A stretch of DNA of 64,000 bases from Bradyrhizobium diazoefficiens (GTDB lineage: Bacteria; Pseudomonadota; Alphaproteobacteria; Rhizobiales; Xanthobacteraceae): contig NZ_CP067102.1 of the NCBI RefSeq assembly GCF_016616885.1, forward strand, positions 7,592,501-7,656,500, read 5' to 3'. Position 1 is the stretch's first letter; each line of letters opens with the position of its first letter. A program made the translations under genes and the position numbers. The notes beneath the pieces are model-generated. The model was not told where the DNA came from, searched no databases, and was given only the letters and a program-made list of their open reading frames with translations. Below, piece by piece: positions 51,476 to 58,831 of the stretch.

Positions 51476-52291
51476 TTGCGTACGATTGTGTCCCATGCGC
51501 GCCAGCGGCGTCGCGCGATGCTCGTGGCCGCCACCCTTGCAGCACCGCTGCTTGCAGCTCCGGCCCCGGTTGCGGCCGAAGGCCTGTTCGACTTCCTCTT
51601 CGGCGGCGCCCAGCAGCGCCCGCAGCGCGACGTGCCGCAGGCGAACTCCTACGTCGATCCCTTCGCCAGTCAGCAAAACCCGGCCATACAGCCGCAATAT
51701 GTGCCACCCACCCGCTCGGCGGCGGCCGGCGGCTCCGGCCCGGCGTTCTGCGTGCGCAGTTGCGACGGCAAATATTTTCCGCTGATGCGCGGCGTCGCTT
51801 CACCGGCGCAGATGTGTCAGGCTTTCTGTCCTGCCAGCACGACCAAAATCTTTTTCGGCTCCTCGATCGACAGCGCCTATAGCCAGACCGGCGAGCGCTA
51901 TGCCGACAGCGAGAATGCCTTCGCCTACCGCAGGGCGCTGCGCGCCGATTGTACCTGCAACGGCCGCGAGCCGGCCGGGCTCGCTCCGGTCGATTTGACG
52001 CTGGACAGTTCGCTGAAGGCCGGCGACGTCATCGCCACCTCCGATGGCCTCGTTGCCTATACCGGCGTCCGCCTCGGCATGGAGCAAACCGCGGAGTTCA
52101 CCCCGGTCGCCTCCTATCCCGGCCTCACCGCGCAGGTCCGCGCCCGGCTCGGCGAGATGAAGGTGGCCCCGGTGCGCGCGGAAACGGTGGCGGCAGACGC
52201 ACCGGCAGCCGAAATCGCGCGCGAGACGCTGCCTGACGTGACGGTGCCGAAGACGCCGGCGAAGTCGGCGAAGCGCGCGGGTTTGGATTGA
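51476..52291 (+). CDS. Exported DUF2865 protein
   Basis: Up to 271 residues. TTG 51476 follows a GGAG; GTG 51488 and ATG 51518 are alternatives. The signal peptide RAMLVAATLAAPLLAAPAPV is followed by a Gln-rich linker and the DUF2865 block: AFCVRSCDGKYFPLMRGVAS, MCQAFCPASTTKIFFGSSID and RADCTCNGREPAGLAPVDLT. Six cysteines in that block probably pair as disulfides in the periplasm. Family function is unknown; it is widespread in Bradyrhizobium and relatives. Confidence 0.85.
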   Translation: MRTIVSHARQRRRAMLVAATLAAPLLAAPAPVAAEGLFDFLFGGAQQRPQRDVPQANSYVDPFASQQNPAIQPQYVPPTRSAAAGGSGPAFCVRSCDGKYFPLMRGVASPAQMCQAFCPASTTKIFFGSSIDSAYSQTGERYADSENAFAYRRALRADCTCNGREPAGLAPVDLTLDSSLKAGDVIATSDGLVAYTGVRLGMEQTAEFTPVASYPGLTAQVRARLGEMKVAPVRAETVAADAPAAEIARETLPDVTVPKTPAKSAKRAGLD

Positions 52292-52294
52292 ATT

Positions 52295-52336
52295 CGTCAT
52301 TCCGGGACGATGCGCTAGCATCGAACCCGGAATGAC
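52295..52336. repeat. Palindromic repeat, GTCATTCCGGG family
   Basis: GTCATTCCGGG at 52296 and CCCGGAATGAC ending at 52336 are perfect inverted arms around GATGCGCTAGCATC, itself a palindrome. It lies between the convergent DUF2865 gene and the next minus-strand gene. Confidence 0.75.
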
Positions 52337-52344
52337 AGTTGAAA

Positions 52345-52776
52345 TCACCGCCCAATAATCACCCCGATCACATTCGGCGCCGCCAGATATTTCTCCTCGA
52401 TCGCCGCACGCGCGGCAGCGCGGTTTTCGGCGGTCAGCAGGCCGCGCTTCTCGGCCAAAATCATCCAGCAAAAGCCCCACCAGTCGGTCAGCATGCCCGT
52501 CTCGCTGACGAGGTCATAGCCCTGCTCGGCCGCGAAGATCCGCGCATGCGCTTCGTCCAGCGTGTCGAGGAAATGATGATCCTCGGGTGCGAACAGATCG
52601 TCGCTGATGTCGTCGATCGTGTAGCCCCAGATTGACTGGCACACCGCGTTGAACTCGCGGTCGAACTGGTCGTCGTCGACGGTATAGCGCCGCGCCGCCT
52701 GATGCAGCCGCGACAGTGACCGCGCGAAATCGGCGATCCGGGTGAGAGCAAACTGATCGAAGGCAATGGTGGACAT
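52345..52776 (-). CDS. Hypothetical cytoplasmic protein
   Basis: 143 residues from ATG 52776 (MSTIAFDQFALTRIADFARS). Acidic and helical with no signal peptide; DLFAPEDHHFLDTLDEAHAR and LTDWWGFCWMILAEKRGLLT are the most distinctive parts. I do not recognise the family. An AT-rich stretch above the start (about 52810-52880) likely holds its promoter. Confidence 0.75.
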   Translation of the reverse strand: MSTIAFDQFALTRIADFARSLSRLHQAARRYTVDDDQFDREFNAVCQSIWGYTIDDISDDLFAPEDHHFLDTLDEAHARIFAAEQGYDLVSETGMLTDWWGFCWMILAEKRGLLTAENRAAARAAIEEKYLAAPNVIGVIIGR

Positions 52777-52905
52777 GTAGTCCTCGCGACGGCTGTCAGA
52801 CCCTAGATATTGTGTCGGCAATGCGCCGAATCACAATGATATATCAAAGACTTGCTAAAGTGTTCTTAATTTGTTCTGATGCTGAGCAAAGGATTATCGG
52901 TGGCC

Positions 52906-52942
52906 GTCGTCCCGGCGAAGGCCGGGACCCATAGCCACCGCT
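52906..52942. repeat. Left arm of 37-bp inverted repeat flanking the GIY-YIG gene
   Basis: The arm begins GTCGTCCCGGCGAAGGCCGG and ends with CCATAGCCACCGCT. It is the exact reverse complement of 53268-53304 over 37 bases; after one mismatch the match extends four more bases (TCAG). Its first 20 bases are themselves an imperfect palindrome, GTCCCGG-CGAAGG-CCGGGAC. It ends 30 bp before the gene's ATG. Confidence 0.93.
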
Positions 52943-52972
52943 GTCAGACGTTTTCGGAAATGGGGCCCAGCG

Positions 52973-53266
52973 ATGAATGCACCCGCCGCGTACTATGTTT
53001 ACATTCTCGCGAGCCGGCGCTACGGCACGCTTTACATCGGCGTCTGCAATGACATCAGCAACCGGCTCACATTGCATCGCTCGGGACGAGGCTCGAAGTT
53101 CGTCAAGAAGTATGGCGTGACACGGCTGGTCTACGTCGAGACGTTTGCATCGCCATCTGAAGCGATCGCACGCGAGAAAGCATTGAAGGAATGGCAACGC
53201 GACTGGAAAATCCGCCTGATTGAGCAGGGAAATCCAGATTGGCGCGATCTCTCACATCTCATCTGA
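52973..53266 (+). CDS. Single-domain GIY-YIG nuclease family protein
   Basis: 97 residues consisting almost wholly of a GIY-YIG domain: YYVYILASRRYGTLYIGVCN holds the two beta-strand halves (VYIL...LYIGV). DISNRLTLHRSG supplies the conserved Arg, and EAIAREKALKEWQRDWKIRL the conserved Glu. This is the UvrC/SLX1-type nuclease fold, but no partner domain is attached. The gene is enclosed by the arms of a 37-bp inverted repeat, one 30 bp before the start and one 1 bp after the stop. Known single-domain members lack a defined role; cutting of the flanking hairpins is my inference. Confidence 0.93.
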   Translation: MNAPAAYYVYILASRRYGTLYIGVCNDISNRLTLHRSGRGSKFVKKYGVTRLVYVETFASPSEAIAREKALKEWQRDWKIRLIEQGNPDWRDLSHLI

Positions 53267-53267
53267 G

Positions 53268-53304
53268 AGCGGTGGCTATGGGTCCCGGCCTTCGCCGGGA
53301 CGAC
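53268..53304. repeat. Right arm of 37-bp inverted repeat flanking the GIY-YIG gene
   Basis: The arm begins AGCGGTGGCTATGGGTCCCG and ends GCCTTCGCCGGGACGAC, the exact reverse complement of 52906-52942. It starts one base after the TGA of the GIY-YIG gene, so it can also act as that gene's terminator hairpin. Confidence 0.93.
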
Positions 53305-53329
53305 ACCATCTTTGTTGCGCAAGTCGGGC

Positions 53330-57324: not shown

Positions 57325-57559
57325 TTTAGCACCGGCCGGTGGCCGACCCGCGCTTGATGTAACGGCGTCGAGGTCGGAAGATGGGGAGCTGCCGGCAGCG
57401 AGGTCGGCTGCTGTCTGGTGCCGAGAGCCCGATTGCGAGTTTGGACCCGGGATGCCTTGATGACCCCAACTGGAGCCCGGGGCGAGAGCCCCGGAGCCCG
57501 CTTCTTAGACTTCCTATCGATGAGGCCCCACGCCGGCAGTGCAAGCGTTGGAGGCGCCA
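57325..57559 (+). ncRNA. Candidate bridge-RNA region of the first IS110-family element
   Basis: 235 bp between a half palindromic repeat (CGTCATTGCGAG) and the transposase start hold no gene. IS110-group elements are known to encode a bridge RNA in such left-end non-coding sequence. The stretch contains GC-rich inverted repeats, for example GGAGCCCGGGGCGAGAGCCC with CGGAGCC next to it. An 11-bp direct repeat ATTGCGAGTTT occurs at 57317-57327 and 57432-57442, leaving the exact left end uncertain. RNA identity is inferred from position, not from sequence similarity. Confidence 0.4.
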
Positions 57560-58831
57560 ATGGATGTCTTATACGAACGAGTGGCCGGATTGGATGTGCA
57601 TAAGGCGACGGTCGTTGCCTGTGTGCGGAGAACGACGGCAGGGAAGGTGGAGCGGGAATGCCGCACCTTTGAGACGACGACGGCAGGGTTGCTGGCCTTG
57701 CTCGAGTGGCTGAGAGAAAGCAAGTGCACGCATGTCGCCATGGAGGCCACCGGCGTGTATTGGAAGCCGGTCTGGAACATTCTGAGCGATGGCGCTTTCG
57801 AGCTCATCCTGGCCAACGCCGCGCATATCAAGAACGTGCCTGGCCGCAAGACCGACATGAACGATGCGATGTGGATCGCCGATCTCGTGGCATGCGGCCT
57901 GCTGAAGGCGAGCTTCGTACCCAAGGAACGGCTGCAGGAGCTGCGCTCGCTGATGCGGACCCGCAAACAGCTTACGCGCGAGCAGACGCGGCATGTGCAG
58001 AGAATCGACAAGACGCTGGAATCTGCCAACATCAAGCTCGGTTCGGTGATCTGCGAGGTCATGGGTGTCAGCGGCCGACGCATGATCGAGGCGATGATCG
58101 CGGGGGTGCGTGACCCGAGCAAGCTGGCAGCGTTGGCTCATGCGCAGATCAAGGCCTCTCCCAAACAGCTTTATGACGCGCTCCATGGTCGGCTGACTGA
58201 GCATCATCGTTTTCTCCTGCAATTGCACATCGGGCAATACGATGCCCTGAGTGCGGCCATCGATCAGATCGATCGGCAAGTCGACACCGCGATTGCCAGG
58301 CTGGATAAGGAGGCCGCCGACGGCCAGGCCTCCTTTCGCGATCTGATCTCGCTCCTTTGTACGATCCCAGGTGTCAGCACCTTGGCTGGCACATCGATCC
58401 TGGCCGAGATTGGCCGCGACATGAGCCGCTTCCCGAGCGCAGGCCATCTCGTCGCCTGGGCTGGGTTGTGTCCGGGACAGAATGAGAGCGCCGGCAAGCG
58501 CAAACGCACGCGGCTGCGCAAAGGAGCGCCATGGCTGAAGACCATGCTCGTGCAGTGTGCCTGGGCCGCCAAGCGAAAGAAGGACAGCTTCTACAATGCC
58601 CGCTTCAACCGCCTGAGCCGCCGCCGTGGACCACAGAAAGCCATCTGCGCCGTGGCAGCCTCCCTGCTCACCGCCATCTATCATATGTTCAAGGACGGAA
58701 CCGAGCACCACGACTTAGGCGCCGCGCATTTCGATCATCGCTCAACCGCCGCAAAGGCCAGACGTCTCGTCGCCCAGCTAGCCAAGCTTGGTTATGCCGC
58801 TCAGCTCCAGCCACTTCCGGAGGCCGCCTGA
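57560..58831 (+). CDS. IS110-family transposase (DEDD)
   Basis: 423 residues from ATG 57560. The N-terminal RuvC-like domain has AGLDVHKATVVACV, HVAMEATGVYWKPVWNIL and VPGRKTDMNDAMWIADLVA (D-E-D-D residues). The C-terminal transposase_20 part has LCTIPGVSTLAGTSILAEIG, WAGLCPGQNESAGKRKRTRL then RKGAPWLKTMLVQCAWAA, with the conserved Ser in NESAGK. The frame is complete and of normal length, so the element may still move. These enzymes work with an element-encoded RNA that pairs with donor and target. Confidence 0.95.
   Translation: MDVLYERVAGLDVHKATVVACVRRTTAGKVERECRTFETTTAGLLALLEWLRESKCTHVAMEATGVYWKPVWNILSDGAFELILANAAHIKNVPGRKTDMNDAMWIADLVACGLLKASFVPKERLQELRSLMRTRKQLTREQTRHVQRIDKTLESANIKLGSVICEVMGVSGRRMIEAMIAGVRDPSKLAALAHAQIKASPKQLYDALHGRLTEHHRFLLQLHIGQYDALSAAIDQIDRQVDTAIARLDKEAADGQASFRDLISLLCTIPGVSTLAGTSILAEIGRDMSRFPSAGHLVAWAGLCPGQNESAGKRKRTRLRKGAPWLKTMLVQCAWAAKRKKDSFYNARFNRLSRRRGPQKAICAVAASLLTAIYHMFKDGTEHHDLGAAHFDHRSTAAKARRLVAQLAKLGYAAQLQPLPEAA

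Follow-up and report, generated by a model that had tools for sequence, protein, structure and literature searches.

Why does a gene for a small nuclease lie between two arms of a perfect inverted repeat, and could its product be the enzyme that spreads those arms? The question arises in the window, the whole 64,000-nucleotide stretch of Bradyrhizobium diazoefficiens DNA analysed here, where a stand-alone GIY-YIG gene is enclosed by two hairpins (Table 1). REPs are common repeats of bacterial chromosomes. The GTAG REPs have a proposed mobilising enzyme (RAYT). For the CGTC REPs, a 2013 survey found a dedicated enzyme to be seemingly missing: this superfamily "apparently lacks a dedicated transposase" (PMC3733652). 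A gene that lies between scattered hairpin repeats and recurs in this setting in many relatives is a strong candidate for the missing spreading enzyme. The pairing puts forward one concrete candidate, a protein of 97 aa whose likely substrate is a defined hairpin, and makes the question directly testable.

The gene, its arms and its product

The original prediction held that the GIY-YIG gene is placed between two 37-nt arms that are perfect reverse complements, that each arm folds on itself and that one arm starts a single base past the stop codon. All three points were borne out over positions 52906-53304. The match between the arms reaches 43 nt at 98% identity (52906-52948 with 53262-53304) and is perfect over 37 nt. 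The gap between stop codon and downstream arm is a single base; that between the upstream arm and the ATG is 30 nt. Each arm forms an 8-bp stem (GTCCCGGC/GCCGGGAC) closed by a 4-nt loop, GAAG/CTTC, with a folding energy of -10.5 kcal/mol as single-stranded DNA; equally stable folds arose in 1/200 and 0/200 shuffles of the two arms. Chance palindromes were rejected as an explanation. When the surrounding 1 kb was shuffled 200 times by mononucleotide, perfect inverted repeats reached 16 nt at most. The 22-nt arm core (up to 3 mismatches) has just these two occurrences in the window's 64 kb, and 100 shuffles averaged 0.00. The unit is compact: a short GIY-YIG nuclease gene with a CGTC-type REP hairpin on either side, the tags pointing outward.

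Table 1. Positions in the window of the GIY-YIG gene, the inverted-repeat arms and the hairpins
Feature	Position	Strand	Remarks
GIY-YIG nuclease gene, stand-alone, 97 aa	52973..53266	+	ATG to TGA; Pfam match
Upstream arm of perfect 37-nt inverted repeat	52906..52942	+	43 nt at 98%: 52906-52948
Downstream arm	53268..53304	-	perfect reverse complement of 52906-52942
Upstream CGTC-type REP hairpin	52905..52931	+	tag outward
Upstream hairpin parts	tag CGTC 52905-52908; stem 52909-52916 / 52921-52928; tail CCA 52929-52931	+	
Downstream REP hairpin	53279..53305	-	tag outward
Downstream hairpin parts	tag TGTC 53302-53305; stem 53294-53301 / 53282-53289; tail CCA 53279-53281	-	

In the available text of the survey (Di Nocera, De Gregorio and Rocco 2013, PMC3733652), CGTC REPs carry an unpaired CGTC (TGTC, CCTC) tag at one end, a stem of 8-9 bp, a loop of 4-5 nt and a CCA tail, and they form head-to-head dimers. 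They are mainly alphaproteobacterial, with hosts that include Bradyrhizobium, Rhodopseudomonas palustris, Sinorhizobium meliloti, Azospirillum lipoferum and Neisseria, and they comprise Neisseria dRS3 and Rickettsia RPE-4/RPE-6; Wolbachia and Caulobacter are among the listed carriers too (PMC3733652). The window's pair shares the CGTC (upstream) or TGTC (downstream) tag, the 8-bp stem, the 4-nt loop, the CCA tail and the head-to-head arrangement; it differs in enclosing a GIY-YIG gene, whereas the same text reports no associated transposase gene. The survey further gives A-T at the first and second stem position "almost invariably" (PMC3733652), and the window's stem deviates from this rule with G-C at pair 1 and T-A at pair 2. 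Since the first pair is G-C against the A-T of the survey, we name the arms CGTC-type and state the deviation; by their layout, they are CGTC-type REPs with one deviation at the first stem pair. Among 28 distinct 27-nt arms adjoining homologues, chosen because their outer 6 bp pair exactly, pair 1 was A-T in 14 and G-C in 14, and stem positions varied between arms as matched pairs; because of this choice only the variety of pair types is informative. In REP hairpins of L003, L120 and L129, a longer inner palindrome (around GTGCGCAATTGCGCAC) takes the place of the loop; outer stem, tag and CCCA end are kept.

The 97-aa protein matched the Pfam family GIY-YIG (PF01541; E 3e-15, 56.7 bits against a cut-off of 22.6). 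This was its sole Pfam match, with neither NUMOD nor any other DNA-binding domain among the Pfam results, and NCBIfam gave no family for it. Residues Y21, G23, R31 and E68 were invariant in 22 sequences and Y10 nearly so, giving the conserved Tyr, Gly, Arg and Glu core. The AlphaFold2 model had a mean pLDDT of 91.7. Its nearest folds were UPF0213 (E 3e-5) and, more weakly, Slx1 (E 0.01), a structure-selective nuclease that cuts branched DNA; the PDB relative of the protein was 1zg2 (UPF0213; E 2.3e-9). Fold and core motifs are shared with Slx1 and with the UPF0213 stand-alone proteins (PDB 1zg2, 1ywl), which we take to be YhbQ-type. The REP-linked subfamily differs in a C-terminal signature, REKxLKxWxRxWKixLIExxNPxWxDL, conserved in the REP-linked set (186 sequences) and absent from 27 distant GIY-YIG sequences. 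This conserved stretch is a candidate for hairpin recognition. An antiphage defence gene was considered and rejected, as PADLOC gave only one match (E 0.021). The own genome holds two more distant GIY-YIG homologues, L015 (36% identity) and L016 (33%), which scored 16 and 7 in the inverted-arm test described below.

Arms around homologues and the match of arm type to protein group

Inverted arms were found around 128/241 homologues overall and around 69/80 at an identity of at least 62%, where any inverted repeat scoring at least 20 within 250 nt was accepted, which may include the arm of a neighbouring dimer. By identity the counts were 22/24 (at least 74%), 47/56 (62-74%), 46/91 (50-62%), 13/37 (42-50%) and 0/33 (below 42%); arms thus went undetected at about half of the loci in the 50-62% band and at two thirds of those in the 42-50% band. 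The set was drawn from 264 fetched loci, 253 of them located, after 7 duplicates, 2 short matches and 3 loci without flank had been dropped; orthologous loci were counted singly and are not independent. Random windows in the fetched loci gave inverted arms in 0/580 cases, and those in class, phylum and plasmid loci in 12/660.

A motif search gave a second measure. With the strict form GTC-stem-loop-CCA (tail CCA only), an inward CGTC-type hairpin within 200 nt was present on at least one side in 119/175 loci and on both sides in 78/175 (184 located, 177 distinct, 175 tested), against an expectation, from the density farther from the gene, of about 0.01 per 200-nt window and strand. Outward-facing motifs occurred upstream in 29/175 loci and downstream in 39/175, none of them at an identity of at least 74%; they may partly belong to whole dimers adjoining the gene. 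Forty further homologue loci (about 40-57% identity), taken from matches outside the earlier fetched set, were positive in 17/40 cases by inverted arms and in 20/40 by motif.

Two kinds of unrelated or distant loci served as controls, for which, as for loci of other bacteria, the motif was accepted with a CCA, CCC or CCG tail. Other GIY-YIG genes of like size at 28-41% identity, a subset of the class below 42%, had arms in 0/29 cases (40 fetched, 29 located by tblastn and tested). Matches to the Y1 transposase, found in 12/20 genomes, had the motif within 900 bp in 0/29 loci; these loci stem from those 12 genomes, and some are adjacent fragments of one gene. On this count we rejected the idea that CGTC arms enclose a Y1 transposase gene. 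The original prediction had asked whether homologues are flanked by arms more often than by chance and had allowed that the arms might be so frequent everywhere that the pairing is fortuitous. The first expectation held, and the second was dismissed by the random windows, the motif density and the distant GIY-YIG and Y1 loci. At the level of sequence, one GIY-YIG subfamily turns out to be tied to CGTC-type arms.

The association reaches beyond the lineage to which the original prediction referred; arms were found around homologues in other genera too. Protein matches occurred in 81/190 class genomes and 137/249 phylum genomes, numbers that include the distant armless subfamily. By motif, the gene lies inside a facing pair of CGTC-type hairpins in Azospirillum lipoferum 4B (where its neighbours are sufB and sufC), on a Sphingobium plasmid and in Aeromonas caviae, whose downstream hairpin overlaps the end of the reading frame. 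For S. meliloti pSymB and Novosphingobium aromaticivorans, inverted arms showed up by alignment alone. In Photobacterium, dimers lie on the gene's downstream side only, and in N. gonorrhoeae dRS3-like hairpins of mixed orientation surround the gene. The homologue loci of Planktothrix and Spirosoma showed no CGTC-type motif. Phage or plasmid cargo was rejected as an account of the gene: two phage records (36% relatives) and 35 records of the plasmid collection had a match, the latter all below 60% identity (nine were fetched). On a plasmid of Planktothrix agardhii (L227), a GIY-YIG homologue without REP arms lies between an MmeI-type restriction enzyme gene and the DISARM gene drmA.

Bradyrhizobium has several separate GIY-YIG loci, and the arm sequence largely follows the protein group. 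Arms at the window's locus are CCCGGCGAAGGCCGGG and CCTGGCGAAAGCCAGG, for two protein groups about 70% identical. A third protein group goes with CCCTGCGAACGCAGGG, which recurs around similar proteins in five flank clusters, and ATTCCGGGG..., GTCGCCCGGCTTGACCGGGCGAC and others occur elsewhere in the genus. The protein groups, called clades below, are named by identity band and arm, with no tree behind them. Exceptions to the match are L060 and L053, with different arm types on their two sides, L067 (72% identity), with type-1 arms, L160 and L162, with two different stems, and L165 from another genus (57% identity), with type-3 arms.

Copy numbers of the arms point the same way in broad terms. 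Median counts of type-1 arms were 68 in 19 clade-1 genomes, 60.5 in 20 clade-2 genomes, 47 in 11 genomes with a broken gene and 4 in 96 genomes with none at the window's locus (gene at the locus versus none, Mann-Whitney p 3e-16, a test that ignores phylogeny). These classes were set by hand over orthologous loci that are not independent; the 96 include G033 and G101, where the flank was not found, G128 was classed as intact though it lacks the downstream arm and the C-terminal end, and G143 and G053 were classed without an integrity check. Type-2 medians were 24 (clade 1), 48.5 (clade 2), 5 (broken) and 0 (none). Clade-2 genomes are rich in both types, with more type-1 than type-2 arms, which argues against a strict one-to-one use; arms are thus not confined to genomes with the matching gene. 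At least 20 type-1 or type-2 arms were present in 10/96 genomes without a gene at the locus, and fewer than 20 in 5/39 with one. For type-3 arms the median was 23 in 34 clade-3 genomes versus 2.5 in 110 without (p 2e-8, again ignoring phylogeny), where some clade-3 copies (e.g. G054, G039, G058, G009, G044 and G043) were assigned from identity and place, unfetched. At least 10 type-3 arms were counted in 36 of the 110 genomes without a clade-3 gene. Two genomes with stop-interrupted clade-3 copies, left out of this test, hold 85 and 189 type-3 arms.

Dispersed dimers and whole units

With up to 3 mismatches allowed, the 26-nt arm core was found at 13 places in the own single-contig genome of 8.09 Mb; 7 are exact matches, and the reversed control gave 0. 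The original prediction had proposed to look for solo arms elsewhere; arms do occur elsewhere, mostly as facing pairs. Inspection by eye gave a facing partner for 12 of the 13, a number that includes the unit's own two arms, and the partner is often a variant with a longer loop. Facing pairs without a gene span roughly 90-140 bp, with spacers that are partly shared. Across the genus, type-1 arms (up to 1 mismatch) were present in 137/146 genomes at 0-155 copies, type-2 arms in 59/146 and type-3 arms in 105/146; the reversed control pattern again gave 0. Among the places listed, facing pairs less than 600 bp apart were, by eye, about 86-112 bp apart, with two exceptions (G050 and G043) that span a GIY-YIG gene.

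At the window's locus, between the genes at 52345 and 53795, the latter presumably encoding a glycogen phosphorylase, 30 relatives showed intact, decayed and empty states. The closest homologues (at least 74% identity) occur once per genome among the matches listed, at the same place wherever the flank was also found. The GIY-YIG gene at this locus looks like an old, vertically inherited and repeatedly lost one. Decayed remnants of the unit lie at the locus in L077, L083, L084 and L089, some with recognisable arms. In the orthologous locus L087 (G014), an arm is followed by the reversed 3' end of the GIY-YIG gene at the contig end, as if the interior had flipped between the arms.

The original prediction also asked whether empty sites lack the whole unit. 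The unit at its locus and one dimer are present in some relatives and not in others. For the window's unit, none of the relatives compared offered a clean empty site with a footprint, the emptiest locus (L085) having diverged flanks. No target-site duplication was readable at the window's unit or at two dimers. Both results follow from the divergence of the intergenic flanks. The varying dimer, at 249974-250089 of the own genome, is also present in G063 and not intact in 16 other relatives, some of which appear as two loci in this comparison. Five of the 16 genomes have only 1-15 nt between the conserved flanks, and G143 and G034 retain a portion of the dimer or a different hairpin.

Whole units at different sites were found in g173, a genus of another family of the order (G376, G380, G394, G442 and G487), in which eight loci were compared. 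In 8/28 unit pairs the alignment runs over 514-529 columns with both borders at most 7 nt from the outer tags, the left border being ...CTTCGTCAT and the right ATGACGAAG...; alignments of the remaining pairs break off at the stop codon or inside the downstream arm, or continue into shared flanks. Two copies in one genome (L202 and L368) have unrelated flanks outside the tags. The borders of the mobile unit in g173 are the outer tags. Defined ends and whole-unit movement, the marks of an insertion sequence, were thus seen in g173 and not for the window's copy.

A candidate mobiliser for CGTC-type REPs

Taken together, we infer that the nuclease recognises its own hairpin and mobilises both the unit and the gene-less dimers, much as in RAYT-REPIN systems and with a non-homologous enzyme; judged from genomic data, we give this a probability of about two in three. 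The nuclease would recognise the CGTC tag, stem and CCA tail, probably when the hairpin is extruded or single-stranded at replication forks, and would cut there. The cut would allow the unit to be copied or moved to new intergenic sites, and the gene-less dimers likewise in trans. In Bradyrhizobium the dimers would then be the dispersed population and the gene at the window's locus the seemingly old, vertically inherited partner, as in RAYT-REPIN systems. With a little more reserve, we also consider it probable that this is a second class of REP system unrelated to RAYTs, in which a GIY-YIG subfamily acts as the dedicated mobiliser of CGTC REPs in Alphaproteobacteria and some other Proteobacteria, with co-evolution of nuclease and hairpin and a non-HUH chemistry of movement. 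If so, two unrelated nuclease folds would have converged on the same design of a nuclease gene plus a population of hairpin pairs.

An unlikely alternative sees the protein as a nuclease domesticated by the host. It would trim or resolve REP hairpins (cruciforms, stalled forks), or employ them as regulatory elements or terminators, without spreading them, and the dimers would be amplified by other means. The shared location of the gene in many relatives, the kinship of its fold to UPF0213 and structure-selective Slx1, and a downstream arm right next to the stop codon, the expected position of a terminator, all agree with such a role. It would leave unexplained the upstream inverted arm, the units with outer-tag borders at different sites and the higher arm numbers in gene-bearing genomes.

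Rather less probably, the unit would act as a minimal insertion sequence whose transposase is the GIY-YIG protein, and the dimers would be simply its MITE-like deletion derivatives. Inverted ends, whole units at different sites in g173, and dimers that share the ends and partly the spacers would fit. Single copies at a shared place, as seen for the closest homologues among the matches listed, are unlike a multicopy insertion sequence, no gene remnants were seen in the listed dimer spacers (by eye, unaligned to the gene), and target duplications were not found. We know of no GIY-YIG transposases. The idea that REPs are merely common between genes, with the GIY-YIG gene a chance neighbour or passenger in a dimer and RAYTs or other transposases spreading the arms, draws on the predominant placement of REPs downstream of genes in the available text of the survey (PMC3733652) and on the Y1 matches noted above, and is very improbable and strongly disfavoured in view of the Y1 and distant GIY-YIG loci, the control windows and the agreement of arm type with protein group.

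Mobilisation by the GIY-YIG nuclease would place the unit beside RAYT/TnpA-REP genes and their REPINs, since both combine inverted palindromes around a nuclease gene with many gene-less pairs. The enzymes belong to different protein families: RAYTs are tyrosine (HUH) enzymes tied to GTAG-tagged REPs, whereas the window has a GIY-YIG enzyme, a CGTC/TGTC tag, no Y1 (HUH) transposase and no GTAG tag at the unit. The original prediction of a RAYT-like pairing with an unrelated nuclease stood as far as flanked homologues, dispersed arms and units mobile in g173 are concerned; the repeats themselves belong to an already described superfamily (PMC3733652). GIY-YIG domains are also linked to mobile DNA in homing endonucleases (I-TevI) and Penelope retroelement endonucleases, according to the available text of a phylogenomics paper that raises the question of whether other family members may act as molecular parasites (PMC1564403). 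The window's protein is unlike these enzymes in its 97 aa, its single GIY-YIG match in Pfam and its place between REPs.

Taken singly, the CGTC repeats, the nuclease fold and the parallel with RAYTs were known before, and the link between GIY-YIG gene and REPs is the part that looks new. In term searches, "palindrom" was absent from the searchable text of the phylogenomics paper (PMC1564403), and later papers citing the survey (PMC12306157, PMC6006769 and PMC5896051) had CGTC in their reference lists only and no GIY term in the text searched. Full-text searches of open-access PubMed Central, judged by hit counts, titles and the openings of abstracts, showed no report of the link; an earlier report elsewhere is possible.

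Two further features lie near the unit in the window. A 430-aa ORF at 57539-58831 (+) is, we assume, an IS110-type transposase. Just downstream of the gene at 51476-52291, a palindrome at 52294-52337 (CGTCATTCCGGG ... CCCGGAATGACAG) is symmetric, with GTC at both ends, and in its stem it matches the arms that accompany another of the genus's GIY-YIG groups (ATTCCGGG).
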